NCBI GenBank assembly: GCA_015178975.1
Contig: WHVD01000145.1
Coordinates: forward strand, 1-64,000
Source of the DNA: Hysterangium stoloniferum
Taxonomy: Eukaryota > Basidiomycota > Agaricomycetes > Hysterangiales > Hysterangiaceae
Reading direction: 5' to 3'
DNA: 64,000 nucleotides
Position 1 is the stretch's first letter; each line of letters opens with the position of its first letter. Under the pieces are notes generated by a model. That model worked only from the letters and a program-made list of their open reading frames with translations. It made no database searches and was not told the origin of the DNA. The translations under genes and the position numbers were made by a program. Positions 1 through 46,193 of this stretch are shown in pieces.

Positions 1-1540
1 TGAAACGGCGATAAAAATTGGCGAAGCCTAAAAAGGATTGAATATCTTTAACCTTTCGGGGTTCCGGCCAATCTTGAATGACTTGAATTTTAGCGTCGTC
101 CATGCGGAGACCATCAGGTCCCATCATGAAGCCTAAGTATTCAACCGTGTCGACATCAAAAGAACATTTTTTACCATTCGCAAAAAGACCATGTTTTCGG
201 AGTCTTCGGAGGACTTCACGGACGTGTTCATCATGAAGTGTAGGGTCTTCGGAGAAGATGAGGATGTCGTCTAGGTACACAATGACAAAGACGTCAAGGA
301 GGTCGGAAAAGACATCATTGATAAAACGTTGAAAGACCGACGGAGCGTTGGTGAGGCCGAAAGGCATTACTAACCATTCAAAGGAGCCATAGCGAGTGCG
401 AAAAGCCGTTTTCCATTCGTCGCCTTCGGCGATCCGAACCAAATGATAGGCGTGTTTGAGATCTATCTTTGTATAAATTCGGGCCTTCCGAGGGGCGTCG
501 AGTAAATCGGAGATTAATGGTAATGGGTACTTGTCTTTTCGAGTAATCGCGTTTAGTCCTCGAAAGTCAACGCAAAGTCGAAGGGAACCGTCTTTTTTCC
601 GAACGAATAGGACAGGGGCTCCATAGGGAGACTTTGAGGGTCGGATAAAACCTATAGCCAAATGTTCATCCAAGAAATCTCGGATAGCCGATAATTCGGA
701 CTGCGAGAGAGGATAAACTGGGCCTAGGGGCGGATGTGAACCATCTTCAATATCAATTTTCAAATCGTAAGGCCTGTGAGGGGCGAGTCGATCGGCTTTT
801 TGTTTACTGAAGACATCTGCAAATTCATGGTATTTTTTAGGAACACCTTCTAAATCTGCGATCGGTTCGGTCACCGGGGATGCAAAGCGACCGGTGACTT
901 CGTCAACTTTAAGATTGACTGTAAATGCTCGGGAGCCGTCCAAATTGATGGCTCTCATAAAAGCTGCGGCGTTTATTAGAGAGACAGGTGGCGGAGAGCT
1001 CGGATTTGCCACGGGGGCCGGAGGTGCTGTAGAGGCCATATTTGCCGAAACAGGTGGAAACGGACCAGTCGTATCGGGTGCCGACGGGGTTCGGAAATGG
1101 ATACTGCTCAATACCCAATCAATCAACGGATTATAGCGGGTGAGCCAGTTATGTCCTAGAACCACGGAGCAGCTCGAGTCCAACTGTGTTACAAAAAACG
1201 TAACTGTCTGAAAGGTTCCACACGGGAACCGAAGTCGGAGTTCGCAGGCTTGCGAGATTACGGAGTTTGAGGTACCATCAAAAAGTCGGAGCGGAATCGG
1301 ATCTATTGCATAGGTTTTCAACTGATTTTTTCTGGAAAAACTTGTATCTATAAAACAATGGGTTGAACCTGAATCTATGAGAGCTCGAAAAGTGAAACTC
1401 CCGAGAGGTTCCGAAGTAAGATTTATGAACAAAGAATTAGGATCATACAATGCGGATGCGTTAAGATGACAATTTTCCGGTGTGCGAGGAGATTCAACGC
1501 AACTCTCCAACCGCACGGAATCCAGAGAGTTGCTTAATCT
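1..1540 (-). CDS. Pol of gypsy element A (protease and reverse transcriptase), 5' part
   Basis: A single open frame from the gag/pol overlap near 1540 to the left edge. The aspartic protease has its active-site segment FRALIDSGSTHCFID at about 1345-1390. A proline-rich linker follows, then the reverse transcriptase with KKDGSLRLCVDFRGLN, the catalytic VYLDDILIF box at about 260-285, and EYLGFMMGPDG before the window ends. RNase H and integrase are presumably beyond the edge. The frame is -1 relative to gag, and there is no separate start codon. I see no disabling mutation in the visible part. Confidence 0.88.
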
Positions 1541-2832
1541 TTTTTCGACTCGGCAGCCGGCTTGGCCGGTTGTGAGGTCGTGGCCGTGTTGGCCGATCGG
1601 GCTTTTGTGGCTTTTGGGCATGCAGCGACTCGGTGTCCGGGATCTGCACACAACAAACAAAGGTTGTTGTCCATTCGGCGTTGCTTTTCCTGTGGTAGGA
1701 GCTTGCCATCGGAGCCGAGTTTGCCAGTTAGGTCGGGTTTGTCTTTGTCTTGAGACTTATTCGACTGTTTGCCCTTGCCTTTTTTGTCGTTAGACCCTTT
1801 GTTTTCGGACTTCTTATCGGAAGTCGAGTTGCCAGTTATATTGGTGTTTTGGTTACCAGACTTGTTGGCATTTTTGTTGTCCGATGATTTTTTGTCCGAC
1901 GGGTTTTCGCGACTGATTTCCGAACGTCGTTCCCAGTATCGAGCGTCTGCGTTTTGGGCTTTCAGGCGCATGAGAGGGAGGGTTTTCGGCTTGCCGGTCT
2001 CTCCTTTGGAGACTTCGTCTTTGAGGCGAGACGGAAGGCCGGAGTAAAACTGGTAACGGAGGGCCGAATCGCCCCAGTCGCAACGCGCGGCGAGGTTGTT
2101 GAACTGGACGATATAATCGGTGATGCGCTGAGTGTCTTTCATTTTGAGATTAGAAAGCGCGGTTTCGGCATCGCCGGTTTGGTCGTAGGGGCCGAAGTTG
2201 GTTTCGAGTTCCTCGACAAAGGCATCCCAATCGTGGAGCCAATCGGGGTCTTCAGAGGTGAGGCCAGAAAATGCGGGTTCAAACCAGGCTGCTGCGGAAT
2301 CCTTAAGGTATGAGAGTGCGAAGTTTACCTTTCGGTCATCCGTTGCGAATGCAGCCGGGCGGTCCCGAAAGTTGAATCGACATTGCATAAGGAATGTCGG
2401 CAATTTCTTCGGGTTTGAGCCAGTAAATGGCTCGGGTTTGTTGACTCGGGTTTGCCCAGGTTCCTTTTCCTTGATATTGCTTTTAAGGAATTCATTAAGG
2501 GATCCTAGTGTACCTGAAAACAATTCCCATGTTTCTTCAGGGTCGAGAGCCGGTTTCTTCTTTGCAGACTTCTTGGAGCCACTAGCCTGAGGTTGGTCGC
2601 CATCCTCGGGTTCGTGTTCCGAAACTGGTTGATTGTTAATCTCCTCAGTTGCTTCGGGATCGGTTGCTTCAGTTACTTCTTCAGCATCGCCGGTAATCTC
2701 CACAAAGCGAGATTCTTCGGAGGTTTCTGGTAGCGGAGTTTTCTGAGTAGCTCGGGCTGTATACAGAAAAGGAGACTTGAGAGTGGAAGATTCTGCTTCG
2801 CCGCTAGGCTTGGCATTTTTCCTCGGAGGCAT
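1534..2832 (-). CDS. Gag of gypsy element A
   Basis: A 432-residue gag polyprotein that forms the retrotransposon particle. The N-terminal 110 residues are acidic and low in complexity. A retrotransposon-gag domain follows at about residues 130-270, with the AAAWFEP and FNNLAARCDW type segments. A lysine/asparagine/serine-rich linker comes next, then one CCHC zinc knuckle near residue 395 (C-LL-C-ADPG-H-RVAA-C, correct CX2CX4HX4C spacing). The ATG at 2830-2832 is the first in frame. The ORF ends at TAA 1534-1536, directly after a run of six A. The downstream pol frame overlaps this end in the -1 frame, which suggests Gag-Pol is made by ribosomal frameshifting. Confidence 0.9.
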   Translation of the reverse strand: MPPRKNAKPSGEAESSTLKSPFLYTARATQKTPLPETSEESRFVEITGDAEEVTEATDPEATEEINNQPVSEHEPEDGDQPQASGSKKSAKKKPALDPEETWELFSGTLGSLNEFLKSNIKEKEPGQTRVNKPEPFTGSNPKKLPTFLMQCRFNFRDRPAAFATDDRKVNFALSYLKDSAAAWFEPAFSGLTSEDPDWLHDWDAFVEELETNFGPYDQTGDAETALSNLKMKDTQRITDYIVQFNNLAARCDWGDSALRYQFYSGLPSRLKDEVSKGETGKPKTLPLMRLKAQNADARYWERRSEISRENPSDKKSSDNKNANKSGNQNTNITGNSTSDKKSENKGSNDKKGKGKQSNKSQDKDKPDLTGKLGSDGKLLPQEKQRRMDNNLCLLCADPGHRVAACPKATKARSANTATTSQPAKPAAESKKD

Positions 2833-3591
2833 GTTTAGACGGAAAATGCGAGTGTGAAATCAGAATATACTGTTAAGAACTGGAAACTGACTAATTGTCG
2901 GTGGCCGACAGGGACCGATCGGAAGGACTTGGCTTCAGCTTATGGGCTGCGCCCTCGCAAATATCCGCAGGATGTCCTTAAATTTCGGGCGGGCGAAGAC
3001 TGGTCCTAGTGAGTACCTTTCGGCGTGATACCGATCGGAATCGAAGGACAAGTCGAGCGTCGGGCCAAGGGGTCGGGGCCGGGAGTGGGCGAGCGCACGC
3101 GAAGGCGGATGGGGGAAGTCTTAGTATGAGACTGATACAGGTGTATGAGGGTATTCTGAGTCGATATTCTGATTGTCTAGTAACTACAATTACAGCGGGT
3201 TCATATACAAGTAACAGGCGTCTGGAAAATACTAATGGGGAGAAGGGCGGAACACGGTATTAACAATAAGCTTGACTAGGAACGGGAAGTTTATGATTAG
3301 TTCGGAGGCCGATGATAACCGAGAGCGGAATTACGATAAAAGGAAATGGTTCGAGGACTACAAATATAGATAGACATATGCGAAACATAAGATTGAACGG
3401 ATCAACATAATAAAGGGGACGTATCAAAGTTTGACCAGACAATACGAGTTATTTGACGTGGGCGTAAATGGAGTTTGATCTTCGCGAAACATTCGTCAGC
3501 TTCGGGGCCGATGGTTTCCGAGGGGACGACTTGAAACGTTGACAAGTGGCGATAACCTCGGGGCCGATAGGGTTGCGACACGGTCGTAACA
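2833..3591 (-). other. Leader and probable 5' LTR of gypsy element A
   Basis: GC- and CpG-rich noncoding sequence upstream of gag. A TGTTACGACC start on the minus strand at 3591 is a plausible LTR 5' end. The 3' end of the LTR could be at TGT 2872 or TGT 2897 (plus-strand positions), but neither is followed by an obvious TGG-type tRNA primer site. No second LTR is in the window to compare, so the boundaries are tentative. Confidence 0.35.
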
Positions 3592-3740
3592 GTTCATCAT
3601 CTTGCATTGTAGACCACAGTATTCTAGTGACTATGCTATTATTAAAAATAGTATGAGTTGACTTATTGTAATACACAATCTACAAGGGTTTAATAGACTT
3701 GCAATAGAAGTACTTGTGTCTCAATCAATGTGTCAGTTAA
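3592..3740. other. Left remnant of a CpG-depleted old sequence
   Basis: 149 bp between gypsy A and the copia LTR with no CpG dinucleotide at all. It is the left half of the copia pre-insertion site and ends with the target duplication GTTAA (3736-3740). The right half continues at 15107. No coding signal is seen. Confidence 0.6.
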
Positions 3741-3928
3741 TATTGAGATACAAGTGTCGAACTGGAGCGAGTGGAGCCGTGTATATGATGCAATAGGTGA
3801 TCCATATTATGATGTGGCTTATGATGTATCGATCCACTTAGGTGGATAAACTCTATCCACCTGTACGATATATATATACGAGAATTAGCATAACGAATAG
3901 TAACACATTTTACACTCGTTCATCTTCA
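3741..3928 (+). repeat. 5' LTR of the copia element
   Basis: 188 bp, from TATTGAGATAC to CATCTTCA. It contains a TATA-like tract (ATATATATAT near 3868-3879). Compared with the 3' LTR there are 7 substitutions, all transitions, and six of them sit in CpG on one side and TpG or CpA on the other. No indels. Confidence 0.93.
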
Positions 3929-3941
3929 GGTTATGGGCCCC
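3929..3941 (+). other. Primer-binding site matching the anticodon region of initiator tRNA-Met
   Basis: GGTTATGGGCCCC lies immediately 3' of the 5' LTR. It is complementary to the anticodon-stem/loop segment of eukaryotic initiator tRNA-Met (GGGCCCAUAACC) rather than to a tRNA 3' end. Drosophila copia uses such an internal half-tRNA primer. The last C is a small departure from the perfect match. Confidence 0.75.
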
Positions 3942-3989
3942 AGCCCTTCTTATCAGTAAAAGAACTTCGAATTGCCTAGGATTATTATC

Positions 3990-6610
3990 ATGTCTACCTT
4001 GGAGAAGATCAAGGACTACAAATTGAGTACAGGAAGTGCATATCAAGTCTTTCCGAAGTTGTGCAAAGACAACTATTTTACATGGAGTGCAAGTATGAAG
4101 ACAGTACTCGAATCCTTGAATCAGTGGAAAGTCGTAATCAGAGAATTGGCAGATCCCGCACGCGCTAAATTGGACGCCCCGACGAAAGATGAATTGGACA
4201 TCGAAGAAGCCTGGGTGCTTCGAAAGAAGAGGGCATATAGCGAAATAATGTTGTGTGTAGGAGACGAACCAAGGGTAGCTATTATGACCAATGATAATCT
4301 CGTTGATGCTTGGAATAAGCTAAAAAATACTTACGGAACATGTCTTGCTAACAGCCAGGCAATGTTACTCTCCGAACTCGTACGTATGAGGTACGATGGA
4401 ACTGGAATAATTGAGTATAAAGCCCAAATGGATTCTATCTGAATCAAGTTGTTAGAAGCAGGACACACAATTGCGGACCCTGATTACCTTAGCCTTTTTA
4501 TGAGCACACTTCCAGAAGATTTTGATATCATGTCGACAACGATCGACTACGACAAGGATACTGTCGAAGAAATTGTCAACAAGCTTCGGCAAATTGAAAT
4601 ACGAAAAGAAATACGCCCCGGGTTTGCAGACGGTTCTGCATTTCGCACTCAAGGTGATCCAATCAGGTTCTGTGGATGATCCCAGCATGGACGTGGGAAC
4701 TTGGGATGAGGTAGGCCAAATAACAGAAGTTCGCAAGGATACTACGAGTGTGGAGATTTATCCCATTGGGCACAAAACTGTCCGAAAAGGAAAAAGAAGA
4801 ATCTTCTGCAATCAAAGCAGGACAAAGGGCTGGCTAACGCACCTGATAACTCATCAACCTCAGTTTCAAGCCGAGGAATGTTTACAGCAGTGGATTCCGT
4901 ATTGTCAGGACATTATGTGCCAAAATATCCAGGACTTACATGATTTTATGGCGTATAATGTGCCGAAGAAGATTCAGATGGCGAATGGTGGTTACATTTA
5001 TGCCAAAGGTGTCGGAACGTTGAAATTGAATGTGTCGAGTTTTGGGCCGGAATTCATAGGCGAAATTCTGAATGTTGAATGGACACCCGAAGCAAAGGTA
5101 CGATTACTGAATCCTGCACAGCTCTTTAAGGATGGCTATCAAGTCGATCTTAATATAAATGGTTCAAAAATTATCGACTCGAATGGGCGAACCTTAGGTG
5201 AAGCCGTCGAAAGAGGGAATGTGTACCCATTCCAATTCATGACGATTCCAGCCTTGTCATCAATATGCAGATATACGAATTTGTCAGAAGGCGAATTACA
5301 AGAAAACTTGGACAACATACCAGTAGCGTATTCCACGAAATCACCAAGCAACTTGATGTTATGGCATCAGCGATTGGGACATCTACACACAGCCGCCATC
5401 CGAAATCTGGCACAGCATTTCGCATCTGGAATAGAAATTGACGATTATGAATAATTTGAAGCCAACTGTATTGCTTGCATCGAAGGAAAGCAGCATCAAA
5501 CCCCATTTAAGACTGGCTGAACTCGAGCGACGTGACTTGGAGAACTCCTTCACATGGATTTGGCTGGACCGATGGAGACGATAAGCTTCGATAAGAAAAA
5601 ATACTTTATAATAATCATTGACGATTACTCACGCACTGTATGGATTGACACGTTAGCAATCAAATCAGAGGCCATCCAGAAGATACGAGAATACATACAG
5701 AAACTCAAAATGCAGTTTGATGTGAAAGTCCAAGGTGTAATGGCAGACAATGGAACCGAATTCATCAATCTGGAAATCAAGAAATATTTATTGTCCAAGG
5801 GAATATCGCTGTTCACATCAGTTCCCTATACACCTCAGCAAAATGGAATTGCAGAAAGGGGCATACGCACAACTTCAGAGGGGGGTCGATCAATGTTGTA
5901 TTCATCGAAACTGCCCAAATTCCTTTGGTCAATAGCTATCAAGACGATGGCGTACCTGAAAAACCGAAGTCCGACTCGATCAAATGATGGACACATGCCA
6001 ATTGAACGAGTTACCGGAGCCAGATCTATCCCATTTGCGTATTTTTGGCAGTCCAGTTAGCGTCGCTGTCCCTAGACAAAAACGGCAGAAATTGGACCCA
6101 CGTTCTAGAATGGGCTACATGGTTGGATATGAACCATACTCCACCGGTTACTTGGTATGGTATCCTGGGTCTAGACGTATCGAAAAGGTACGAGACGCAA
6201 TATTCCACAAAAATGCAATGACATTGCCATCACCGGTCCTGTATGGAGATGAAGGGCAATTTAGGAATGTTGCAGATATGAAGGAAAATAACGAACCTCA
6301 ACTAAAGGTGATGCTGAATGAGCCGCAGCCTAGGCTCACGATACAGATTCCTCCACATCCAAGACCCACTGATGAAAAAGGAAAAGAAATCAGCAAATCA
6401 TCAGACCAGTCACAGCTAGTTTCGAATGTACCTGATATCCCACGTGGAATGTCATGATCCGGACATACAAGAGAAATAGCTGGAAGTACAATATTAGCAA
6501 ATAAGGATGAATCTGGGCACGATAACGGACTCATCATGTATTCCGTGATAGGAGATAATCCAACAATCCAAGAGGCACTTAACATGCCAGGAGAAGAAGG
6601 AGCCACCTGG
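3990..6610 (+). pseudogene. Decayed copia gag, protease and integrase
   Basis: Gag starts at ATG 3990 and runs in one frame to a degraded zinc knuckle near 4737-4782, whose first Cys is replaced by Tyr (Y-YE-C-GDLS-H-WAQN-C). Three in-frame TGA stops interrupt gag (4440, 4677, 4707). The protease region near 4888-4920 no longer shows a DSG active site. The frame then changes and integrase follows: an HHCC zinc finger (WHQRLGH to CIAC, about 5360-5480) and a catalytic core with DLAGPME, DNGTEF and an E in NGIAERGI (5554-6060). Stops lie at 5452 (TAA), 5518 and 5533 (both TGA). A further frame change near 5990 leads into the C-terminal part, which has a TGA at 6455 and runs to the gypsy insertion point at 6610. 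Confidence 0.88.
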
Positions 6611-6875
6611 TGTAAGGTACTTTGTACTGTAAGCGCAAAGTATCTTAACGGGGGAAGATGTGTACGAACTAGTTTCTTGTTTTTCAAGGACTTTTGAGAG
6701 CCTTATATACATAAAAAATAAACTGAGAGTGGTACGATCTACGCGAGTGGTACGATCTACGCGAGTGGTACGATCTACGCGAATGGTACGATCTATGCGA
6801 ATGCTTGATAATAAACACGTGACCTCTCAGTTATTGATGACAAGATCGCCGTGTAGGGAGTCTCACTCCCTTACA
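6611..6875 (-). repeat. 3' LTR of gypsy element B
   Basis: 265 bp. It differs from the other LTR at four positions, all transitions, three of them at CpG. A TATA box (TATATAAGG on the minus strand, 6701-6709) and four tandem 18-bp units (6729-6800) lie inside. Confidence 0.93.
6729..6800. repeat. Four tandem 18-bp units inside the gypsy B LTR
   Basis: The unit GTGGTACGATCTACGCGA is repeated four times. The last copy carries ATG and CTATG variants. On the element's minus strand the array lies upstream of the TATA box, so it may be an enhancer-like promoter repeat. The matching array in the other LTR is at 13244-13315, with a different mix of CG and TG variants. Confidence 0.9.
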
Positions 6876-7146
6876 CCTCCCGGGCACTCAAATATCGACT
6901 GTCCCCAGTTGATCTCCATGTTATGTTGATGTGACAATGGAACTGCTCCGATCATGCATTGAAGTGTGGAGGACGTTGATTGGAGATGCGAAGGATGTAG
7001 CGCCCAACGAGACAATAGAAGAGACACAAGTTCGCGCCCAAGTGAAGAGCTAGACATTGAAAGGGATCTCGCAGGGTAGTGGATGTTATTGCAGATGTGA
7101 TAAGTGTGCTGAGGGATGGACAGATGCGGTGAGTGTAGGGGCGAGT

Positions 7147-10100
7147 CTACTTGTCAGAGTTTGAAGGGCAAACATCATTGTACAGAATATCCTTGGGATC
7201 GACAAGCAAAGTGACTGGGATGATTGTACGAGAGCGTGGGTAGTATGGAATAAGGCGGAACACGGCATAGGGTTGTTTGCTAACTGCGCCATCCAGCTCA
7301 GCTAAGATATAGGCCCTATTTCGAGTCTGACGAACAACGATAAGTGGACCCAAGTAGCGCGGTTTTGTTTTGCGTGATAATTCTGTGTCAACACGCGAGT
7401 TCCTTACCAGCACGAGTGAGCCCTCCTTGAAATTGTAGTCAACTATGAGGTGTTCATGGTCTTTCTTGAACTGGGCGATAGATGCATAACGGGACTTCAG
7501 GACTCGTTCTTTGATAGCAGCAAGATCTACTGGTCGTTTTTCAAGTTGTCAAGCACGGAGGGCAACAAGTTCGCTGGTTGGAAGAGGGGTGTCAATTTTC
7601 GGCACGAGGTAAGTCGCTTCGACAACATCAAAAGGCAGAATTGGCTCGATGCCATGGGCTAAGTAAAATGGCGAATAACCTGTATCCTTCTTGACAGTGA
7701 CGCGATCGGCCCAAAAAACGTGAGACACAATTTCTGGCCAACGAGAGAGGTTGCCTTCGCAAGTTTTAATTAGGGATTCATGAATGGTACGATGGTTGCG
7801 TTCGACAATGCCATTAGCTTGTTTATTGTATGCAGAAATGCGAATGTGGTGGATGTGATATTTCGAGGCAAGCCAGTCCAATGCTGCAATGAAAGGAGTG
7901 CCATTGTCCGTAATGATTTCTGAAAGGGCACCCCAGCGACAGAGAATATCATTAAATATGAATTTTCCCAACGTTACTGCGGTTTCGTGTGCCAGTATCT
8001 TGAACTCCGGATACGAAGTAAGAGAACAGCGGCCCTGAACAATGTATTGTAAACCTGACACCTTTGGCATGTGCATAGTGTCGAGATGTGCACGTTGAAA
8101 GAGTGAGGCGGGGGTGGTGACCATAGGAGGAATAAAAACACGTTGTGTGCTACGGAGTTGGCATTCATGACACGTTTTGACAAACCATGCTACATCGCGG
8201 TCGAGTCCTGGCCACCAAAAGCGATCTGACAAATTTTTTCATGTCGAAAATGCCTGTTTGTGTCCCAGTTGATCATGTGCCTGCGAAATGAGAGAAAGAC
8301 GTTTGTTCAGATCAAGAATTACAAGGCGATGCATGCCTGAGTTGCTACGGTGCCAGAGTTTACTGTTTTTGACAAAAAAGCGGAGAGATCTTCGAATAAA
8401 TTGTTTTGTTCCTGCTTCAGACAGTCCAGGCGGTTTTTGAGTGGTTGAAAGAAAGTCGAAAATGAGGGGCAGTTGGGAATCCATGAAAATGTTGTCTTGA
8501 GTGCGGGGAATGTCACTTTGAAGAGAGCTGGTCGTGTCATTAAAGGAGAATGCCGAAAATGGGGAAGAAGAGGCGGAGTCGAGGGCATTGTTTGTGAAGT
8601 ATCCATTGTGATCTGTCCAACTAGTAATCCATACCCCTAAACCTAAAACATCGTCAATCCATCCATCATCCATATCCTCCACATCACCTTCCACACTTCG
8701 TCGCCTAGACAAACCATCTGGTCCTACGTGATCCTTCCCCAGGTACGTGTATGAGCTGAAATGTAAATAGCAAAATGGCTGCGATCCATCGATTCATCGC
8801 ATTGTTTGGCTGAATATCTGGGTTATTGAGCATTCCTTTAATGTACTTGGCATCAACTTCGAGATTGAAGGTAGGTAGACCAATAAGAAAAAGCCTGAGG
8901 GCTCTCAGAGCACGATAAACGCCATATAGTTCAATTTTTGGCTGTGAATAGCGAGATTCGCGATCGTTCCAAGCGATGGAGCCATATCTTGAGGGGCGTC
9001 GTTGGCCGTGTTCATCCAACTGATAGATAATCCATCCTACGGCGATATTTGACGAGTCAATGGCCACAATGATTGACCTTTTGCATGCGTAATCAAGGGG
9101 AATGAGTGCCGGTGCAGACGTTACAGCTTTTTTGAGTAAATCCATTGAATTTTGCTGAAGTGCTTCCCAAATGAAAGGTTTGTCTTTTCGTGTCAATGAA
9201 ACTAGGGGACGAGCGAGTTCAGCAAAGCGTGCAATGAAAATTCTAACCACTCCACAAGTGCCCAAGAAGCCTCGCACTTCAGTGAGATTTTCACAAGGCG
9301 GCCAGTTAAGGATTTTTGATATACGTGCTTGATCGGGGATACGGCCCTGATAGTTACATGTGTGGCCGACAATATTGACTTCCTTCATTCCAATGTAGAG
9401 TTTACTTGCTGAAAATGTCGCTCCAGCATGCTTCAAACGGTGAAATATCCTGTTAACGTCTAAAAAATGTTCCCAAACAAAACGTCGAATACCACAATTT
9501 TCGGGGATAGTTTCATAGCTGCCATCCTGCAACTCATAGCGTGTTTTGGGTCCCAAGATAGGTATATCATCGAGAAAAGGGGGGGCAATGTCAATTTCAT
9601 CCTGTAAAATAAAAGTAACGTGGCCTTGAAAGATAGAAACGGAATTGGACCATCCCATTGGCAAACATGTGAGACGATGGGGTCCAAGGGGGGTTTGGAA
9701 TGTCGTGAGGTCTCGGGATTGTTCTGCAAGTGGTGCATGATCATATCCTACATACAAGTCACCCAACGTGTAAATTGATCTTCCTGCGCAATGCTCAGCG
9801 TACGGTTCAATGTTGGGGGGAACACTGGCATCTTTGACAGTGACTGCATTCAGAGGTTGTAAGTCATGCACAATACGAAATTTCCCATTTTTCTTCGGCA
9901 CACAAAACCATCGTGATCGGTAAGAAGAGCCCGAAGGTTCGTAAACACCGCTGGAGATTTTCTGTTTGATAAACTGTATAATTTCGTCTTTGAGCCCAAG
10001 GGGAATTGGAATGTTTTTGAGGGCCCATGGTTCATGCTCAATGGTCGGAATAACTATGGGTGAAAAATAGTCAGTGCGGAACATGCCCCGCTCCAAATCA

Positions 10101-11134
10101 TTCCATGCTAGAGCTGATTCGTTGTAGAGGAGGACTTGAAAAGCTAATTTTAATTCTTCATTACTCAGAAACTCCCGATCAATCCTGAGTCCGTCCCAAC
10201 GTTCTTTTGTAAGCCGGGAACCAAACTTGACAATGTCGGGGGGGAGGGGTGAGAGGAGAGGTAAAGAATCGATAGGGTTGCTAGGGAACTGTCGCCTTGG
10301 CACTGCATCAGTAGGCATAGTCGTAGCCACAGGGCGAACTTTTCGGGAAACAGGTTTGTATTTTAGTGCAAGCGTAGGGGACTGAGAATCATAAACCGCA
10401 TGAAAATATTGCCCAGCAAAATGGGAGTGGGAAGAGAAGAAGGGTGTGTCGCTGGTTGTGGGGGGCGAAGCTAATAATGAAGCTGTTGAGCTGTTGGGGA
10501 CAAGGGCCAGAGGAAGCGGGAGGAGCCCTTCGTCAGAGAGATACAGGTTGGATGATGCATTTGGCACCCGCGGTTGTGAGTGTGGTCGCATTGGCACCCG
10601 TAGCTTGAATCCTGGCCTGGAAGGATCCTGTAGTAATAAAGTTTCACCAATATTTTCTGTGTCGGCCCTCGCTGATATTTGGAAAGGCCGGCCTAAGAGC
10701 AGACAATAAGGTGCATTCTGAATAATCCAAGCGTGAACATGGATTTCGACACCACCTATCAGAAGCTGCAGGTTCTCGATGATGCCAAATGTTGTACAAA
10801 CGCCACCATTAGCGTCACGCATGTTAAGTTTTAGGTCAGTGCTGAAAGGGAGTGCCATATCTTTTGCAGCAACTTTGCTTATGCACACAAGTTCCGAGCT
10901 GGGGTCATAAAGTCCTACTTCGGAAAATTTTCCTTGAATTTTGACATCCAATTCCATTATTGGGGCAGAATGGAGTGGCATAGCTTGCGTGAGCAGGGAA
11001 GATGCAGTGGCTGGGACAGTGGCAGGAAAAACAGGAATGCGGTTTACCTTACAACCGTCAACAAAAAGTTTTTGAACATCAGGTGATAATGCTAGAAGCT
11101 CGCCATGGGAAACTGAAACTGAAGAGTCTATCAT
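7147..11134 (-). pseudogene. Decayed Pol of gypsy element B
   Basis: It is read from ATG 11134 leftwards, in the same frame as gag and separated from it by one TGA (11150-11152). A protease-like segment (LYDPSSELVCI) stands where D-S/T-G would be expected. The reverse transcriptase has KKNGKFRIVHDLQPLN, GDLYVGYDH and the catalytic FLDD box (near 9560). RNase H has VAIDSSN near 9050. A frameshift occurs near 8720-8730, after which the frame resumes with GLSRRRSVEGD. The integrase zinc finger has GHK and CHEC, and the catalytic core has TMHMP, ITDNGTPF and VERNHR (about 7800-8090). A GPY-like YLGPLIVV segment follows near 7330. In-frame TGA stops lie at 8239-8241 and 7549-7551. It cannot encode a full polyprotein as it stands. 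Confidence 0.88.
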
Positions 11135-11149
11135 CCTTTCAAAGACCTT

Positions 11150-12547
11150 TCATGCAATGTCTGGATCCTCGATTTTTGCCTTGTATTGGAATTGGGGGGT
11201 TTTTTTTTCAGGTGATGAGGAAAAGGTGGGGAGAGGTACCTCAGCGGCTGATGTTGAGGTGGAAGGAGGACTTCTGCTAATAGGTTTACCGTTGTAGGTA
11301 GCCAAAGCAAGCTGATATGAGTGATAGGCTTTCTGAACCACATCGTAGTCTTCAGTGACGTCTTCAATAAGGCCAGTTGTAATACTCGAGGGGGTCGGCT
11401 CAGTGGGGGAGACTTCAAAAAATAGCGTGGAATGTGGAGTTGATGATGGGGGTGGGTTCCCGGAAATACGAGCCTGTTCCTGATCAATGACAAATTTCAA
11501 ACCCTGAGGATGATTGGGCAATCGCCCGCCATTGGGCCAACGCCAGAAGCCTTTGACATCTGCCACTTTTCCAGTATGTAAGTATTCCAGCCCAATCGGA
11601 CAGCGTCTGGTGCTGTGTATGTTAGTAGGATCTTTACAAAACAGACACACCGGAATTATAGATCCCACAGCTCCCTGGGATGTCGATGAAACAGAAGGTG
11701 GGGCAGGGATAAATTTTGCCACGAGTGGGTAGGTAGTGTGCAACCGAGCATAGGTTATGGCGTAATCCTTGTTTTTGACATGGAGAGACTCAAGCCGCTT
11801 TAAAAGGCTATCTAAATCGTCCGAAGGTGGGCACGAGGAAGGGGGAGAAGGGAGAGCAATGGTACGGGTTATGACCTTTGCTTCGGAAGGGGCTCCCTGG
11901 GAATTAGGCATAGGTGCCGCATATGGAGACTCGAAACCTTCTGGGGGGCTTCTGTCAAATGCATTTACATCAAAGACATACCTTCCTGCATTGAAAACAT
12001 CCTGCCAGTTATATGGCTGTGTGCGAGAGTGATTTAGATGTGTGGTTGACAGACGCTGCTCAAGTTTTTGCCTAGTGTTTTCATGGAATCCAAACCAGAA
12101 GTAATGGTCACGGTCTTCAGAAGTAATGACATTTTCGGACAGAAGGTAATGCGAAATTGCTTGAAACCCTAGCTTGTAGGTTCGAAGCCCGGCATCTGAA
12201 GTGACGGGTGATGAGGATTGTGTTCGAGTGAACTGGATGAGAGACTGTCGATTATAGCGTTTTTCCTTGAACGCCCCTTCAAAGGCATCCTCAATAGCAG
12301 CTTTGAAGGTGTTCCAGTCTGAGGGTGAATAGCCATCAAAAGTCTTGAAGATGTCACGCTGTAGTCTAGAGAGATAGCGAAACAAGAAAGGGACTCTGTC
12401 GCAACCTGTTAGTTGTGCATCATCCGCACAATTCTCAAACTGCTCCAGAAACTCCGCCACATCATCCTCATTCCCATCGAAGGTCTTTGGAGCGCGATTT
12501 GATCCTGGTGCAGGCATAGCTGCCTTTCCGGTAAGCACAGTTGCCAT
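11150..12547 (-). pseudogene. Gag part of the gypsy B gag-pol frame
   Basis: An open frame of about 465 residues from ATG 12547 (the frame is open further upstream without an ATG) to TGA 11150-11152. It has a gag-type region near residues 20-180 (FDGNEDDVAEFLEQFENCADD and following), a Ser/Pro-rich linker and a variant zinc knuckle (CLFCKDPTNIHSTRRC). The TGA is followed in the same frame by pol, so gag-pol was probably one ORF. CGA to TGA is a simple explanation, and stop readthrough is the alternative. Confidence 0.75.
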
Positions 12548-13125
12548 GTTAGATATCAAAGGTGGTAGAAAAGTCGGGGGAGGAGGCTGCACAGACAATA
12601 CGGGGGTTTGGGGTGATGGATGTTGAGGAACGGTAGCTGTAGCACGTTTACGAGGACAGAGAGTGCGCGGCGGCAGGGCGGGCTTTGTGGGCGGAATTGC
12701 TTATAGAGAATGAAAAGACGTCCTGAGGAAGGGGAGACGCGAGAAATGCGCCGAGGGAGGACCGATGACGACCGATGTGATTTTGCGCTGAAATGCAGTC
12801 GTTAAACGTTCAAAGTGATCTTGAAGGGCGGGAGACACGATGGCAAGCGCGATTGAGTGTGTTGAGGCAAGGACAGATACGACAGCTGCGATAATGCGCT
12901 GAAGTAGAACAGACGCGACGATACGCCAAAGGGTGGTTGTTGAAAGGGGTGTCGAAATGTGGCAGATGGGACTGACATGACGCTGGCGCCGATATAGAGG
13001 CAGACGATGACAGAAATAAGACGATGTGTGGCTGATAAGACTGACGCAACGCTGGCGCCGATAGGGAGCGAGAAAAAGGCTCTTAATCTTAAGTGCAGGG
13101 TTCGACAAAGAGTGGGGCTCCACTA

Positions 13126-13390
13126 TGTAAGGTACTTTGTACTGTAAGCGCAAAGTATCTTAACGGGGGAAGATGTGTACGAACTAGTTTCTTGTTTTTC
13201 GAGGACTTTTGAGAGCCTTATATACATAAAAAATAAACTGAGAGTGGTACGATCTACGCGAGTGGTACGATCTACGCGAATGGTATGATCTATGCGAATG
13301 GTACGATCTATGCGAATGCTTGATAATAAACACGTGACCTCTCAGTTATTGATGACAAGATCGCCGTGTAGGGAGTCTCACTCCCTTACA
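13126..13390 (-). repeat. 5' LTR of gypsy element B
   Basis: This is the partner of 6611-6875. On the minus strand it is followed by TAGTGGAGCCCCACTC, where TGGAGCCCC could be a tRNA primer site. I could not assign the tRNA. The 18-bp tandem array is at 13244-13315. Confidence 0.93.
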
Positions 13391-14924
13391 CTGGGAGAAG
13401 GCACGACAAGCAGAATGGCAGAATATGTTGGATCACGATGTGTTCGGACCACCTGAAGAACCGCCGCCTGGAATGCAAATTTTTAAAATGGGAACTGTAT
13501 GTCGTGGAACGTACAAGAATGGCGAACTGGTAAAACGAAAAGTTCGGATTGTTGTCAAGGGGTTCAGTCAGATTCCCGGTCTACATTTCAACGAGACGTA
13601 CGCACCTGTTATAAAATGGGAAACATTTCGAATTTTACTGGCACTGGGAGGAATAACGAATTCAGCCATTTGTCAATTCGATGTTAAATCGGCGTACTTA
13701 CATGGGACAATGAAGGAGAAGGTTTGGGTTCAGCAACTGGAAGGATTTGAAGAACCTGGAAAGGAACACCTACCATTACCGTTATTAAAGGCTCTGTATG
13801 GCACGAAACAAGGAGGCAATGAGTGGAGAAAGACGTTATACGATTTTATGGTTAAGGAACTCACCTGGTTCTGTTCCAACTTCGACAGCGCTACATTCTT
13901 CAAAATGTGGGACGATGGAAGTTGGGCCATGGTTGCTTTTTGGGTGGACAACGTGACAGCTGTGGGTGATGAAAAGTGTCTTCTAGATCTCGAAAAGGCA
14001 GTTAGCGAACGGTTTAGAATTTCAAGTGAGGGAGACGCACACTGGATTTTGGGAATAAGTATTCGTCAAAACACTGATTCGAAGTCAGTATTCATATCGC
14101 AAAAGGAATATATCGAAAATGTTGCGAAGAAATTCAACGTACAGAATTCAAGACCTGTTTGGTCCCCTATCGCACTAGGAGTTGATTTCCAATCCATTAC
14201 ACGTCCGGAAACAGAAGAAGAACGCGAGGAAATGGCGAAACTCCTGTATCACGAAATCATAGGAAGTTTGATGTTTGCTGCCACGGTATCATGTCCTGAT
14301 ATTGCATATTCTGTGAACAAATTATCGCAATATTTGACAAACCCAGCAAGAGCACATTGGAACTTAGCGAAACGAGTTCTCCAATACTTATACACCACTC
14401 GAGATCGCGACCTTCGTTTGGGAGGAGGAGCGCTTTGTTTACACGCGTATTCGGATGCAGATTTCACTGGTGATACAGAGGACAGAAAGTCGACTGGAGG
14501 ATATGTTGTATTTTTAGGATCAGGGGCCGTATCTTGGTCTTCAAGAAAACAGTCAACAGTAGCCCTGTCTTCGATGGAAGCTGAATACAATGCATTATCT
14601 GAGGCAGCACACGAAGTTATGTGGATGCGACATTTTTTGGAAGAGTTGGATATCATTTATGAAGAACCAACAACGATTTTCGAGGATAATCAAGGAATGA
14701 TTGCATTTGCTCATAATTGGCACACTCTATGATGAATGAAACACATTGAAGTCAAATATCACTTTATTCGGCATTTAATCGAGAACGGAATGATACAACT
14801 TATCTATCGACACATGAAGGAAATGATTGCGGATATTTTGACGAAATCGCTACCACCGTCAACTCATTCTTATCATACGCGCCGACTAGGTATTGGAACT
14901 TCAACACTCGAGGAGGAGTATTGA
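13391..14924 (+). pseudogene. Decayed copia reverse transcriptase and RNase H
   Basis: It continues the copia frame after the nested gypsy. The reverse transcriptase has FNETYAPVIKWETFR, QFDVKSAYLHG and ALYGTKQGG. The catalytic box reads FWVDN where copia elements carry YVDD-type residues, so the second Asp is Asn (GAC to AAC at a CpG). RNase H has YSDADFTGD, SSMEAEY and EDNQGMI, all with acidic residues in place. Two consecutive TGA stops (14730-14735) interrupt the conserved C-terminal part, after which the frame continues (KHIEVKYHFIRH) to a stop that overlaps the 3' LTR. Confidence 0.9.
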
Positions 14925-17075: not shown

Positions 17076-17690
17076 GCTGAAGCTGCAGAACGACAATACT
17101 TCCTCACAGCACAGACATGATTGATTCGTTTCGGGTTTGCATAAGGAATCGACTTAAATAAATAGCATGTTAGGTGTAATCTACCCATTCCTCGATGTAA
17201 TAAAACCAAGAACGACCGGACAGACCTTCTCCCATTGATCCGCATCCTTTTGATGGTCCCGTTCGCACCGCTCAAACTCTGGGCACATATCCATGCATGT
17301 ATCAACAACAGTGATTGCACCTGTCAAATCTGTCTTATGTTCAGGATTTGAAATAAGCTTGTGCTTAATGGCATATGTCAATTGAGATGGATGGAGGGCT
17401 TTAAGCTACAATTCGACATTAGGGTGCATAGTGCACGGTGGCAGTGAAATGCAAGATTTACCTTTAAATGTTTATTTCTGGGAGGGCCTATATCTCGGGA
17501 AGGCGGAATCGACTACGAGAACATTACGCCGCTGCACATTCTACTAGGTCACCACAGGTACTTCCTGGCTCGACTTTTGAGGGATAATCCTAATATTAGG
17601 AATATGAAAATCTTGGAATAATCGACCTGATACGACACTGAGCTCTCTGAGTGGCTAAGTGGGTATGACATAAGCCACCCACAAGGAACA
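17076..17690 (-). pseudogene. Inverted, truncated copy of the SAC3 5' end
   Basis: The minus strand matches the promoter, exon 1, exon 2 and the beginning of exon 3 of the full SAC3 gene at 31487-32172. Shared peptides include TYAIKHKLISNPEH, TDLTGAITVV, CMDMCPEFER and NPKRI. The copy of exon 1 has a stop at codon 4 (TCATCG... region reads TCG TAG) and an internal deletion of about 45-50 bp. Homology ends after the RSAA codons. It cannot make a functional Sac3. It is a partial segmental duplication in opposite orientation to its source about 14 kb away. Confidence 0.85.
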
Positions 17691-26988: not shown

Positions 26989-28408
26989 AGACGTTTTGAA
27001 TATCTCAGCGTAAAACGTTCGCTGAGAGACATTCGTGCTTCAGAATTTTTCCCAGACTGTGAAAGGCAGAAAGTCATTGTCTTCTTCTGTGGTTGTTATT
27101 GGTGATGGACTGGGTCACAGCAGGAAATACAGTTACTCTTCGTTGAAGCCTGTTAGGTTCACAAGACAGTACTGTGTACTTGGCTCGTATCAACGGCCAA
27201 CCATTGCTCGGGCAGTAAATCACTGATTAGGCCATACTACTTACTCAGACTACAGAACTAGGTCACAGGACAGGGGCAGGTTTCCGCATCATGGAGCCAG
27301 ACACCAACCTGCCCCAACCCCATGCCCCGTGCCTCGAAGGAATGCTGGTTGGGATCGTGAACCTGCATTCTTAGACTTTCGAGGTTGTTGGGAGACTAGA
27401 TACAGAAAGTCCCCTGTGTTAATCAACCTTACAAAACGTTTAGCCCCGGGGTAGTGTGCATAGTGTCAATTGAAGATGTATGCAGTGTATGCAGTGTCCA
27501 AAACGATACTTGCCAACGAATCATAGAAGCGCGATATGTACCACTATCCTGTCTGGTACCCATGAAGTGAGGTTGATACAACTGTTGAAATTTTGGCCGT
27601 TCGGCAATAATCTCAACATGATGACACTTGTGGGTCTTAATATATTTCGCGATAACACTACATAGTCCTGTATAGTAGCTTAGTAATATTAACGCTTTTT
27701 GCTCGCGTCCACGGTGTATACCCCCCACCCTTTCATTGAGCCGGAGATGCACGGAACCCATGGATGGCTTTTCTAAATGCCGCCAGGGCAATGAAAATGT
27801 TCCACGTCGATACGAAAGACGGCCTTTTCGATTAGCAAATCACATTCGTCGCTAGAAATCAAAGCGTGTCCATGTTTTGGATGCAGCGGATTAATCTAGT
27901 GACTCTGTCGAGGCACATAGCTCAGAAAATAAAATCCATAAACAAGGTGCCAATAAACTATGGCAGGAGACAGACAGGTTGGATATATCAGAGGAATTCG
28001 AGAGCTGAGAAAAAATCTAGAAATAAAAGGAGCCTGATTCAGACAGCGTTTTTGGATGGGGTCAAATCGAAACAATTTTGTTCTGGGACCGATGTCTCAG
28101 ATAAATGGGCATGTTGTCGAGCCTGAAGAACTTCGAGGAGTGATGGCTTGTAGTCTATGAATGATACGAACAATGGGTATTCAAGTAGTATAATATCACT
28201 CTAATAAGTTCGGTTCAAGCTTAAAACCTCACACATTGAATTCCCATTGATAGGGCCCCGGATTCGGCTATACGGAAGTATGGGCTGGAGATTGGAAGAC
28301 AAGTGGTCAAAATGTTGTATTTTAGTCATCCCATGCTACTATCCCAAGTACAACCCTACCATCAGTATTTCTAGTATTAGCAACAGGGAGATTCCAGATG
28401 GTTAACAG
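26989..28408. other. Intergenic region, no gene recognised
   Basis: Only short random-looking ORFs. A small perfect stem (CTCAGCG/CGCTGAG, 27004-27026) follows the eIF2A-like fragment. On the minus strand, 27690-27730 shares about 30 bp (GTATAC...GTGGACGCGA-CAAAAAGCG) with the region upstream of the histidine phosphatase pair near 30265-30305. Confidence 0.4.
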
Positions 28409-29259
28409 TCAAATCTTATTAACGGTCAAGTCTAAACCAAAAGTCTTTTGATAGTATCCCTGTGGGCTCTCCAAAGGACGATCTCCTAGGCGAACAATGA
28501 ATCTTTCCCTGAGGATATATTAACCTCGCAAAAATGGCTCAATAAGGACAACTATTACCAGTGTGTATTGCCATATTCAATCTCCGAATAACAATGTTGT
28601 TCTGCATTCCAAGACAATAGCGCCTCATAGAGCTCTGAAAGAAAAAGGTTGTGACTGACAACGACGATATGCGGGACATCATCAGGAAATGGGTTAGCGG
28701 ACTGAATCGGACGGTCTTCAAGCAACTCCGTGGGCGGTGAGGGAAGATAACGACCGTATCTATGAATCAGGTACTGCAGCACCAAGACACCTCTCTCAAC
28801 AACATCAGTCGCAGATTCTCCGCCAGGTGGACGATGCAACCGCCCTTCCTGACTGCTGGGTGCGTAGCCACCAGTGCGCAACTGCCGTGCTTTGGAATAG
28901 TCACTGCGTCGCATACACTTTTCAACTTCAGGCCCATGTCCTTGCTCTCTAAGAAGCGAAAGTGTCTTCAATTCCAGCGTGCTGGAATGAACATCCACAA
29001 TGGCCTGGGCAGTCGTCTTTGCTCTTGCCATGTCAGAGGAATAAATGCTGTCGGTTCGAATGTTGGCCCAGTTTTGCCCAAGTCTTCTAGCCTGATCATG
29101 GCCTCTTGTCGTCAGTTCGTCTCCCAAACCACTGTCCACACAACTGTCCACGTTTGACTCGCTCTATTAAGCAAGATATGTGAGTAGACATTAAAAGAGG
29201 AATTAGGCAGTGCTGACTTGTGCATGGCGGATGAAGGAGAATACGGCGTATTTATACAT
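28409..29259 (-). CDS. Histidine phosphatase (phosphoglycerate-mutase-like), proximal copy
   Basis: A branch of the histidine phosphatase superfamily that transfers phosphate through a catalytic His. Exons 29259-29218, 29163-28559 and 28508-28409 join in frame to 248 residues from ATG 29259. The catalytic motif reads FIRHAQ|SESN across the first intron (usual form RHGE/RHAES). LTTRGHDQARRLG, an RPPGGES segment and the second active-site His in VVVSHNLFLSE follow. The key residues look intact. The ATG used by the other copy is GTG here, and the frame is open upstream into the last exon of the distal copy, so this unit may instead be the second half of a fused protein. Confidence 0.75.
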
Positions 29260-30168
29260 TGTATCCTTATCCTCAGAATTGGATTGTGTCCCCAATCCAT
29301 CTGGAGACACTTCAACTTCGCCTTTTTCGGGGACATTGCATGTTCCTTGCTGAACATATGATAAGTCCAAACCGAAAGTCATTTGATAGTATCCGTGTGG
29401 GCTCTCCAAAGGACGATCTCCCAGGCGAACGACAAAACGAATCCTGTGGATATATTAACAACCAAAAAAGGCCTAATAAGAGCACAACTATTACCATTGT
29501 GTATTACCGTATTCAATCGCCAAATGTTGTTCTGCGTTCCAAGACAATAGTGCTTCATAGAGCTCTGAAAGAAAAAGGTTGTGACCGACAACGACGATAT
29601 GCGGGACACCATCAGGAAATGGGTTAGCAGACTGAATCGGACGGTCTTCAAGCAACTCCGTGGGCGATGAGGGAAGATAACGACCGTATCTATGGATCAG
29701 GTACTGAAGCACCAAGACACCTCTCTCAGCAACATCAGTTGCAGATTCTCCGCCAGGTGGACGATGCAACCGCGCTTCCTGACTGCTAGGTGCGTAGCCA
29801 CCAGTGCGCAAGGCCCATGCTACGGAATAGTGACCATATCCCATATGCTCTTCAAATTCAGGCCCATGTCCTTGCTCTCTAAGAAGCGAAAGTGTCTTCA
29901 ATTCCAGCGTGCTGGAATGAACATCTACAATGGCCTGGGCAGTCGGGTTAACTTCTCCCGTGTCAGAGGAATAGATAGCGTCGATGCGGACATTGGCCCA
30001 ATCTTGGCCAAGTTGTCTAGCCTGATCTTGACTTAATGCCGTTAATTTATTTTCCAAAATAGGCACACTGCCGACTTGTGCATCGCAGACGAAGGAGAAT
30101 ACGGCGTATTTATACTTTGTATCTTGAGCCTCAGAATGGGACTGTGTCCTCGAACCACCTGGAGACAT
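29218..30168 (-). CDS. Histidine phosphatase-like protein, distal copy, catalytic motif lost
   Basis: A tandem duplicate of the downstream unit with high DNA similarity over the whole length. Exon 30168-29495 is followed by an intron (29494-29444) and an exon starting at 29443. The frame does not stop where the other copy ends. It continues through a linker into the RHAQ-containing first exon of the proximal copy at 29218. At the active site FIRHAQ is FVCDAQ: both catalytic Arg and His are replaced (Arg to Cys fits CGC to TGC). The second-site His is kept in VVVGHN. If translated, this half is likely catalytically dead. Confidence 0.65.
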
Positions 30169-31486
30169 TTCAACTTCTTCTATTTCGGGGACTTTGGATA
30201 TTCGTTGTTAAATATCTGACTAGTCAAAACGTGTCAATGAGGAAATAGAGGTAAGAGCTGTTGGCGCAGGAGGGAGGTATACGCCGGTACACGGTGGACG
30301 CGAACAAAAAGCGCACCTAGCACGTCAATACTTATAAGAAATTAGCCTGAGTAGACATATGGAGTAGAGTAGACGTCGACGTAAATAAGCTGGCAGTTGG
30401 GTGTGGAAGGGCCGAGGATACACAGTAATGAGTCAGTAATGAGTCGATTGTTTGTCTGCCATGAGATCTGGTCGTTTGCTTCCTGCCTTTTTTTTCAACT
30501 ACACGTGTATTTTGTAAGGGTTGGTGTCGTAATGCTGAAGAGCCGAGTGAAGGAATCTGGCTCGGTGGCATTGGTTTGAGTCAGTCACTACACGGAGATC
30601 TCATTAACAACACGATGGAGATAAAGGTGAGATTGTACTATGCATCTCATATTTGTGCGCCGGCTGATTTTCTTCATCACAGTTTTCCGCTCATATTCGG
30701 GGTACAGTACATATGACTGTCGTGGATCTATAGGTGTCGAAAGAAATTCGTAAAATTACTCAGTGTTGTCTAACTGATATGTAAAGAGACGTAGATTTCA
30801 ACTCCCGACCACTTGACCACCTCTGCGTGCGACCGGAACCCATACGCGAGCAGTCAGCGGAATAGTCGTTGGTCCAAGTCACAGTCGTTGCTCAGCCGCG
30901 GCTTACCCTCCTATACTCGTTTTTTATTATCGTTCTAATTTTCTTTTAATAAGATCGTAAAGTACATATATTTCAATGCTACGAGATCGGGCTAGACTGT
31001 GCATATTTATAAGTGACTACATAGAATTACAAGCAACCTGGCGTCTTTGACAAATAAGAAATGGCTGGGGCCTTACAGTCGACCTCATTTGATTTCACAT
31101 CGACCTTATAACTCGTGGATACAGGGAATGAAAAGCCTACCACCCACATGTCGATTAAGCGGGCACTCAGAATACCCTAAATAGGACCAAAATGGCACAT
31201 CCTAATCCAATACCTCGCCATAATTCACATAGACCATCGTCCTCTAATATCTCATTATGTTTACAGTGGCCTCACGTCTCCAATTTGCTTCCCTGACTCA
31301 ACTTACGCCTTCCTATTCACACTACTCCCAACCGAATCCATTTAATTCATTAGCAAAGTCACAATAAGATGTCTGCACATAAATGTGGGGTCCATAAAGT
31401 ATGATACTTTGGATCATAACGAAATATGCTAGATAATTACGTCACAAGTGTATAAGAAACGTTAGCGCTGAAAAGGCCTCAATTTG
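30169..31486. other. Intergenic region, no gene recognised
   Basis: No coding region supported. It is the upstream region of the histidine phosphatase pair on the left and leads to the SAC3 promoter on the right. The last part (from about 31487) is the segment duplicated in inverted form at 17690. Confidence 0.5.
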
Positions 31487-31681: not shown

Positions 31682-34600
31682 ATGTTCTCAGAGTCGATTC
31701 CGCCCTACCGCGTCCCTCCCGCGATTCAACGCGAAATCGAGCAGGGAAAATATGCGGGAGATCACAGGCTTCCCGGAAATAAATATTTAGAGGTAAATCT
31801 CGCACTTCACTGCCACCGTCTGCATGCTAATGTCCAATTGTAGCTCAAAGCCCTTCGTCCATCTCAACGGACATATGCCATCAAGCATAAGCTTATTTCA
31901 AATCCTGAACATAGGACAGATTTGACAGGTGCAATCACTGTCGTTGGTACATGCATGGATATGTGCCCAGAGTTTGAGCGGCACGAACGGGAGTATCAAA
32001 AGGATGTGGATGAATGGGAGAAGGTCTGTGCGGTCCTTCCTGATTTATTATATCCAGGAATGGGTAGGTTACACCTAACGTGCTATTTATTTGAGTAGAT
32101 TCCCAATACGAACCCTAAACGAATCGATCATGTCCGTGCCGTCAAGAAGTATCGTCGTTCTGCAGCCGGGAACGACGATCCTCTCCCAAGCGATTTGCGT
32201 CCACCCGCAGTTCTTAAGGTATATCATGTACCATGTTGTAGTTCTTGTCTGATTCTATCCCTGCCTTCGAAGAAAACTCTGGATTACTTGCTTCATACAC
32301 TCCTTCCTACGTATGGCCTCGCGGCGACGTACGCTTTCATCCGGGACCGTACAAGATCCATCAGAACAGATTTTGTCATACAACATGTCAAGGACGCAGT
32401 GGCGATAGAGTGTTTCGAGCGCATTGCTAGGTTTCACATATTGGCTGTACATGTTTTTTGCGAACCAGAAGAGCGCACTGGGGAAACAGATGATCCCGTC
32501 AAAGGATTTGATTATCGGTTGGAAGTAGAACAAATGATGAAGAGTAAGCTTTTCTTGCTGAATCTTGACTGTTTCAAACGAACTAGCCTCGTATCCACTC
32601 AGCTCTACAAAGTCTTATACAATTTTACGACGATCGACCGCTTTCTGCGCCACCTTCGCCTAATGAAGCAGAGTTCAGAGCATACTACTTGCTTGCCCAT
32701 ATCCGCTCTACTTCGTCCCTGCGACGGCTTCACTCCCTGCCTGGTCATATATTTAATTCACCAATTCTTCAAGCTGCACTGGAATTTCAATCGTATTCCC
32801 AGGCGCTGTCACTGACTGCGCCTTCTACTGCGACACACAAATCTCGTACTAAGACGGCTACATCCTCTCTCCCACTCCAAAACTTCTTCAGCCGCTTTTT
32901 CAAACGCGTATCTAATCCCGTAACGTCCTATCTCATGGCGTGTTTGCTGGAATTCCACTTTGGAGGTGTTAGGAGGAGTGCAATACATGCGCTATGGAAG
33001 GCGTACAGCACAAGGCATAGAGGGGTACCTATCGGAGAGGTCGGAGTGCTGTTGGGTATGGCATTGAGTGCTGAGCATGTAGATGAAGAGGCTGTCGCAG
33101 ATGTTGTGCGAACTTTTGGTATCCGAGTTGAAGAGGATGATGGAGATGGGTTTGGGAAAAGGGTGTTGCTGAGTCGCGTTAGTCGATTTGACTGTGAGTG
33201 CAACTAACGCTTTCGTTCCTTTTAATCTCAATTTATCCGGCAGTTACCGCCCAGATGGCACAACGACATTCCGCAAAACTTGTTGAAGCAAAACGAGCCG
33301 GATTGACCGACGTCGATATTGTCGATGGGAGGTTTGACAAGGCTCAGGAAACCTGGTCGGCAGACTGGCAGGGTATTGGAGCAATAAAGCCTCAAAATCG
33401 CCCTTCTGTGTCGGTGCCAGCGGTCCATTTTCCTGTCGCAAAGTCTCTCTTCAGCTCGACTGCAACGTGGCCGTCCCATTCATCAACAAAAACCCCATGG
33501 CCGTCGTTTCAAACACAGACAACCGTTACCGCTACCGCTGCCCCGCCTGCCTTTACCCAACCGTCACCATCACCACCACCAGTCCCATCTTCATTTATCG
33601 CACCTGCACGTTTTTCATTCCCTGTATCCACTGCCCCTCCACACCCAGCCGCCAGCTTATTTACTTCGACATCTACTCTACGGAAAGAAACTATCTTCAC
33701 ACCGCCCTCTGCATCCCCTGTCTCCCTTTCTCCCTCCCAGTCACAGCCGTTAGTCGTGCAGGCACAATCACCAGTTCCCACCTCTTCTGTGTTCCCCATT
33801 GTATCATCCACTTCTCAATTGTCACAAGAGAAGACTGAAACACAGGAAGAAGAAAAGGACGAAAAACAGGCTTGGACGCGAAAAGAGGAAGGACAGCGGA
33901 AGTTGAAAGAACAGCGGGAAAGGGAGGAAGAGCTACGTCTTCAAAAGCAACTTTTGCAACGCAAGCAGGAGAAGGAGCGGGAGCGGGAACGAAAACGTCG
34001 TAAAGAGGAGGAGGAACGAAAGCAAAAGGAAGAGCAGGAGGAGCTTGAACGTCAAAGACGGCGAACATTACGTCTGTTACGTCAAGAACGTGCTGATTCG
34101 CTCTATATTTCGAATATCTTTAGACGATGGAAGCGAGTGGTTATCTGGAGAGGGCAGTCGAGAGAGCGATTTCGGAGTAGTATTAAAGGTATGGGGCTTA
34201 GTAATGGAGGCGGAGATGCGACTGCAAGGCCACAGCCTACTCGGAAAGGAAAGGAGAGAGAATGGAGTGTCGAGGAAGATGTGATTTCATGGGAAGATAT
34301 GTCGCAGGTATCAGTGTCGGTGTCGAGAAGAAGGTCACGCAGAAATATGAGAAGAGCAGATGACGATGTAACACTGGCTGCAATCAGGGAGGTAGGTAAT
34401 CTTCTTTGAATGTTTGCATATCTTATCATATTTTACCGGGATGTAGGCGGAAACGACCCGCTTAAAACTATGGGAGCACGGAACGTTTGCAAATGCCGTC
34501 AAAAAGAGTGGATGTGTCGGGGATATCTGGCTTTCTGCCACTCCTGAAAATGCGAGCACAGGCGAATGGTTGCGCACAAAGTTCGGTACAGACCAAATCG

Positions 34601-38846: not shown

Positions 38847-46193
<7,347 letters not shown>

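Follow-up and report, generated by a model that had tools for sequence, protein, structure and literature searches.

A probable two-domain histidine phosphatase gene with a dead first domain, present as two fused copies in Hysterangium stoloniferum

The window (the whole 64 000 nucleotide stretch of Hysterangium stoloniferum DNA that was analysed) carries on its reverse strand a gene model of four exons, the three introns of which all have GT..AG ends (Table 1). A preliminary description of this DNA had proposed the same four exons, adding to 534 residues, together with a stop-free, in-frame passage from a first phosphatase unit (unit 1) into a second (unit 2). Both were reproduced upon splicing of the frame, in which all 534 codons were open. 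The joined 534 amino acid protein gave two His_Phos_1 stretches in Pfam (2.5e-37); scored separately, unit 1 reached 50.9 bits and unit 2 (exon 3 only) 68.9 bits against the Pfam cut-off of 21.7 bits, which places both in His_Phos_1 (PF00300). Single-sequence structure prediction of unit 1 returned a mean pLDDT of 35. When intron 2 was kept in the gene, the frame stopped at a TAA right after HAQVSTA. Judged from its sequence, the locus is probably one gene coding for two tandem branch-1 histidine phosphatase domains.

Table 1. Features of the fused gene and its surroundings (window coordinates).
Feature	Position	Strand	Basis or remark
Exon 1, dead histidine phosphatase domain (unit 1), new start ATG 30168	29495..30168	-	open frame, His_Phos_1 2e-13; lacks the catalytic Arg and His, SxxN and the second Arg
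Intron 1, 51 nt, GTAATAG...CAG; retention gives an immediate in-frame TAA	29444..29494	-	46 nt on C112
Exon 2: unit 1 C-terminal tail, junction at ~29359-29362, former unit 2 N-terminal segment, RHAQ motif	29218..29443	-	226 nt in both fused genes
Intron 2, 54 nt, GTCAGC...TAG	29164..29217	-	GTGAG in five single genes
Exon 3: body of intact phosphatase domain (unit 2)	28559..29163	-	His_Phos_1 6.1e-19; 7/7 checked unit 2 residues present (two lie in exon 2)
Intron 3, 50 nt	28509..28558	-	49 nt on C112
Exon 4: unit 2 C-terminal tail, stop TGA	28409..28508	-	splicing of frame
Unit 2 part of tract with 94% identity to unit 1 (29523-29822), interpreted as gene conversion	28593..28892	-	identity, trees
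In-frame ATG in unit 2, proposed alternative start, window-only	29257..29259	-	Lys 6, Arg 1, Val 1 among 8 other units
Former N-terminus of unit 1 (31 codons), cut off and now upstream of present start; in-frame TAG 30222-30220 and TAA 30210-30208	30169..30261	-	open in C112 gene
End of abundant dispersed repeat (52 bp) where ancestral start region would be; other repeats beyond	30262..30313	-	repeat matches
Whole block homologous to C112 fused gene	28159..30259	-	83.8% over 2111 aligned columns

Relatives were searched for in the 111-Mb assembly (554 contigs). The unit 1 query gave at least 14 matches in nine places, namely the window tandem, a second tandem on contig C112, five single-domain genes (on C540, C212, C542, C24 and C146) and two incomplete or degraded copies on C74; a Pfam scan of the whole genome counted 19 His_Phos_1 matches. 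Nine units were aligned (two from the window, two from C112 and five from the single genes), the two C74 copies being left out. The single-domain paralogues resemble the tandem units in amino acid identity (51-64%), in the motif RHAQSESNV and in their introns, which match window introns 2 and 3, but they have one domain with a start and a stop of its own. They begin MADxEALL...GLDQSxxQQGxSN and end ...YQKTFDxDxxVNCL.... Two of them (L012 on C542 and L013 on C24) are 98% identical in protein, a recent duplication. The C74 copies (L015 and L016) are degraded family members, one without its first half and the other with a shortened exon 1 and frame breaks.

The closest solved protein by sequence was zebrafish Zgc:56074 (PDB 3e9c; 4.2e-11 for unit 2 and 0.0023 for unit 1), which we take to be TIGAR; a putative assignment to the TIGAR type follows from this closest structure, by sequence. 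TIGAR aligns with unit 2 at the RHG/RHA motif, at SxxN, at the downstream Arg, at the Glu and at the C-terminal His; it differs in having a single domain where there are two here, the first of them dead. Seven residues, whose catalytic roles we presume from the histidine phosphatase family, were checked in each unit. Window unit 2 has all of them: R and H in RHAQ, S and N in SxxN, the second R, then E and the C-terminal H. C112 unit 2 and the five single genes likewise keep all seven. Unit 1, said in the preliminary description to have lost its catalytic Arg–His pair, indeed has Cys–Asp at these positions in the window and His–Pro on C112. Altogether five of the seven residues are lost in window unit 1 and six of the seven in C112 unit 1, the Ser and Asn places being less sure because they lie at alignment gaps. 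The second Arg is replaced by Glu (AGA-to-GAA) in unit 1 of both fused genes. Two fixed points lie 90 nt apart in either unit 1 and 162 and 164 nt apart in the two second units, counting introns of 54 and 56 nt. A net in-frame deletion, shared by the first units, took away the 3′ end of the intron and the SxxN segment, and former intron sequence is, by eye, partly coding there now. Since the deletion and the Arg-to-Glu exchange are common to both, unit 1 was crippled before the fused genes split.

The dispersed paralogue on C112 has the same fusion with four exons and three introns and codes for 567 amino acids, starting at an ATG that matches the ATG of the five single genes. In the window and C112 genes, respectively, introns 1 to 3 measure 51/46, 54/56 and 50/49 nt (differences of 5, 2 and 1 nt), exon 1 measures 674 vs. 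650 nt when counted from the codon matching ATG 30168 (a difference of 24 nt), exons 2 and 3 measure 226/226 and 605/605 nt, and exon 4 measures 100 vs. 118 nt with stops at different places. This pattern of lengths supports splicing and a translated fused frame. Because the fused frame is present again on C112, the fusion was copied as a whole. Amino acid identity between the two genes is 69% for the dead domains and 82% for the active pair. The possibility that the window contig (C52) is the other haplotype of C112 was rejected: the matches end at the shared block, beyond which 5.5 kb of the window and 5 kb of C112 gave no match (blastn). A 2.4 kb piece at the adjacent SAC3/GANP gene is matched over its full length nowhere in the assembly but at its own place, and the 936 bp upstream on C112 have, besides themselves, only two short matches. 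Upstream of the C112 ATG, the match to the single genes extends over at most ~25 nt.

Within the window gene the two units share a highly similar tract of 300 nt (Table 1). Trees built outside the tract grouped each unit with its counterpart across the genes (support 100 and 88), whereas inside the tract window unit 1 joined window unit 2 (77), beside C112 unit 2 (80). The sequences lend moderate support to conversion of unit 1 by unit 2 as the best reading. Towards the end of the tract, four sites set the window units, both alike, apart from the two C112 units, and there some conversion may have run in the opposite direction.

In both fused genes ...TFGLDL runs directly into SY-x-QQGT, so the end of one copy has been joined in frame inside the N-terminus of the next. 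Neither the 3′ nor the 5′ flank of the single genes was found between the units, where the unit 1 stop and the unit 2 start are also absent. As these alignments show, a head-to-tail duplication put the C-terminal exon of unit 1 in frame with the interior of the unit 2 N-terminal segment; the stop of the former unit and the start of the latter were removed. The view that GTG was the ancestral start of unit 2 had to be abandoned: the codon is an internal Val in seven of the nine units and Ile in an eighth, and window unit 1 alone has Met there. The five single genes and the C112 fusion start farther upstream, at MADxEALL or MAGEEALT, the ancestral ATG lying ~35 codons upstream of the Val codon; C112 still has it, whereas repeats have cut it off in the window. 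Neither ATG 30168 nor ATG 29259 is shared with any unit outside the window.

The severed 31-codon N-terminus contains two stops, the next 534 codons from ATG 30168 none. Dispersed repeats account for most of the 539 bp (30262-30800) that precede the window gene, and the upstream region of the single genes was not found there (blastn). Given these repeats and the missing region, the window copy may be silent, and it may be decaying. Positions 27582-27718 and 30262-30313 are copies of a dispersed repeat of ~137 bp, the 26-nt end of which had 56 forward and 80 reverse matches in the assembly (≤3 mismatches; control 0 and 0). Elsewhere this repeat forms several direct pairs ~1.3-1.5 kb apart. A transposon bearing the phosphatase gene between terminal inverted repeats was considered and rejected: the 26-nt inverted pair (27693-27718/30288-30313) belongs to the common repeat, so that chance flanking suffices.

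Selection was estimated with a branch codon model. Over all columns, ω was 1.10 for unit 1 (2ΔlnL vs. 1: 0.26), 0.55 for unit 2 (7.7) and 0.94 for the other, single-gene branches (0.26), and unit 1 and unit 2 differed with 2ΔlnL=5.9. The 120 columns outside the converted tract gave 1.21, 0.44 and 0.74, respectively (2ΔlnL vs. 1: 0.49, 6.2 and 2.2; unit 1 vs. unit 2: 5.7). When unit 2 was split, the window branch gave 0.50 (2ΔlnL=3.6) and the C112 branch with the stem 0.60 (3.2), neither part being significant alone. Pairwise ω was 1.10 for the unit 1 pair and 0.53 for the unit 2 pair. On these codon comparisons unit 2 is judged to be under purifying selection. As ω is 0.94 in the single-copy relatives, a value near 1 does not set the dead domain apart. 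Unit 1 of the fused genes has neither a stop nor a frameshift. In simple neutral simulations the unit 1 pair stayed stop-free with a probability of 0.0015-0.008, or of 0.078 when only the columns outside the converted tract were used; the C112 unit 1 branch did so with 0.003-0.018 for an assumed 90-140 changes. The lack of stops despite an ω of about 1.1 indicates that the frame of unit 1 was kept while its residues drifted. Combined with the constraint on unit 2, it favours a passenger domain over a conserved regulatory pseudoenzyme.

The best explanation, which we hold to be probable from the sequence comparisons, is a frame-locked passenger domain ahead of an active phosphatase, the first domain being dead, the fused frame duplicated and the window start replaced. 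A head-to-tail duplication locked two phosphatase copies in one frame; unit 1 has lost its nucleophile region and unit 2 has retained the seven checked residues. Without a start and an upstream region of its own, unit 2 could be translated solely as a continuation of unit 1, and selection would, owing to this dependence, keep unit 1 open and spliced with its amino acids little constrained. In the window copy, repeats would have replaced the original start, the orphaned N-terminus would have acquired its two stops, and the Val codon would have mutated to the ATG that is the present start of the 534-residue frame. A stricter version is offered tentatively: that the duplicated domain is held purely as an obligatory open leader, its catalysis lost, drifting, part-patched by conversion and barred from stops and frameshifts, and that a new start within the dead unit saved the gene once the original one was destroyed. 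Weighing against the passenger explanation are the repeats before the window gene and the missing upstream region of the single genes there, the short match of C112 to those genes ahead of its ATG, the simulated no-stop probability outside the converted tract, the lack of significance of either part of unit 2 by itself, the GTCAGC of intron 2 against the GTGAG of the single genes, and the ω of the single-copy relatives, which is also near 1.

That the window copy is a young pseudogene, which lost its upstream region and start to the repeats and is intact only by recency while the C112 copy works, has perhaps one chance in three. The upstream repeats, the lost ATG and the two stops in the old N-terminus fit such a course, as do the two degraded family members on C74; against it stand 534 codons open at ~16% divergence from C112, an ATG placed downstream of the stops, the preserved GT..AG ends and the low, though not significant, ω of the window unit 2 branch. 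This reading concerns the window copy only and is compatible with a passenger domain in the fused family, so that the odds of the two overlap.

The preliminary description had further suggested that the fusion of a dead to an active domain could be regulatory. Its single frame of two domains, the first dead and the second intact by its looks, is supported; a conserved regulatory role is not supported, in view of an ω of 1.1 that does not differ statistically from 1 and of the lower identity of the dead than of the active domains. A true pseudoenzyme with a selected role (binding of a substrate or partner, regulation, or dimerisation with the active domain), in which changes were favoured, is accordingly considered improbable. 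It would account for the frame being kept in both fused genes and for an ω slightly above 1 outside the converted tract, but that ω is not statistically above 1, and the dead domains differ in 31% of their residues and carry different replacements of the Arg–His pair. A precedent for binding is provided by flea salivary acid-phosphatase-like proteins, in the description of which the term histidine phosphatase superfamily is used and which lack catalytic residues and bind small ligands, namely amines and leukotrienes (PMC10728186); the abstract of that paper mentions no fused active domain.

Two separate genes, unit 1 ending after NTQW by keeping intron 1 (TGG-TAA at once, a TAA into which the C112 unit 1 match also ran in the genome-wide Pfam scan) and unit 2 starting at the ATG 29259 present in the window, are very improbable, and separate transcripts starting there are unlikely on the alignments, given that the flanks of the single genes are absent between the units, that this ATG is missing from all eight other units and that in C112 unit 2 the stretch from the junction to RHAQ contains no Met.

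The domains of receptor tyrosine phosphatases have a fold unrelated to that of the histidine phosphatases. In the tandem D1/D2 arrangement described for these receptors, active and inactive domains occur in one protein (PMC7320164); the inactive domain is second there and first here, and a regulatory role here is putative. Among the literature matches listed, none was by its title or the opening of its abstract a tandem histidine phosphatase with a dead domain, which is no proof of absence in print. The locus would be a clean case of the birth of a pseudoenzyme–enzyme fusion, in which a single in-frame duplication ties two domains to each other before the first loses its function. As one genome offers two fused copies that have diverged and five relatives that are not fused, much of the sequence of events can be read, and the question of passenger versus regulator becomes testable.

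Elsewhere in the window, a stretch of the SAC3/GANP region is repeated in inverse orientation 15 kb apart (17082-17249 vs. 32000-32166, 86% identity). Long open frames at 1534-14732 resemble, by eye, pieces of nested retroelement gag/pol on both strands. At higher coordinates than SAC3/GANP, a long open frame contains an Ion_trans ion-channel domain (42495-43703, 2.8e-30).
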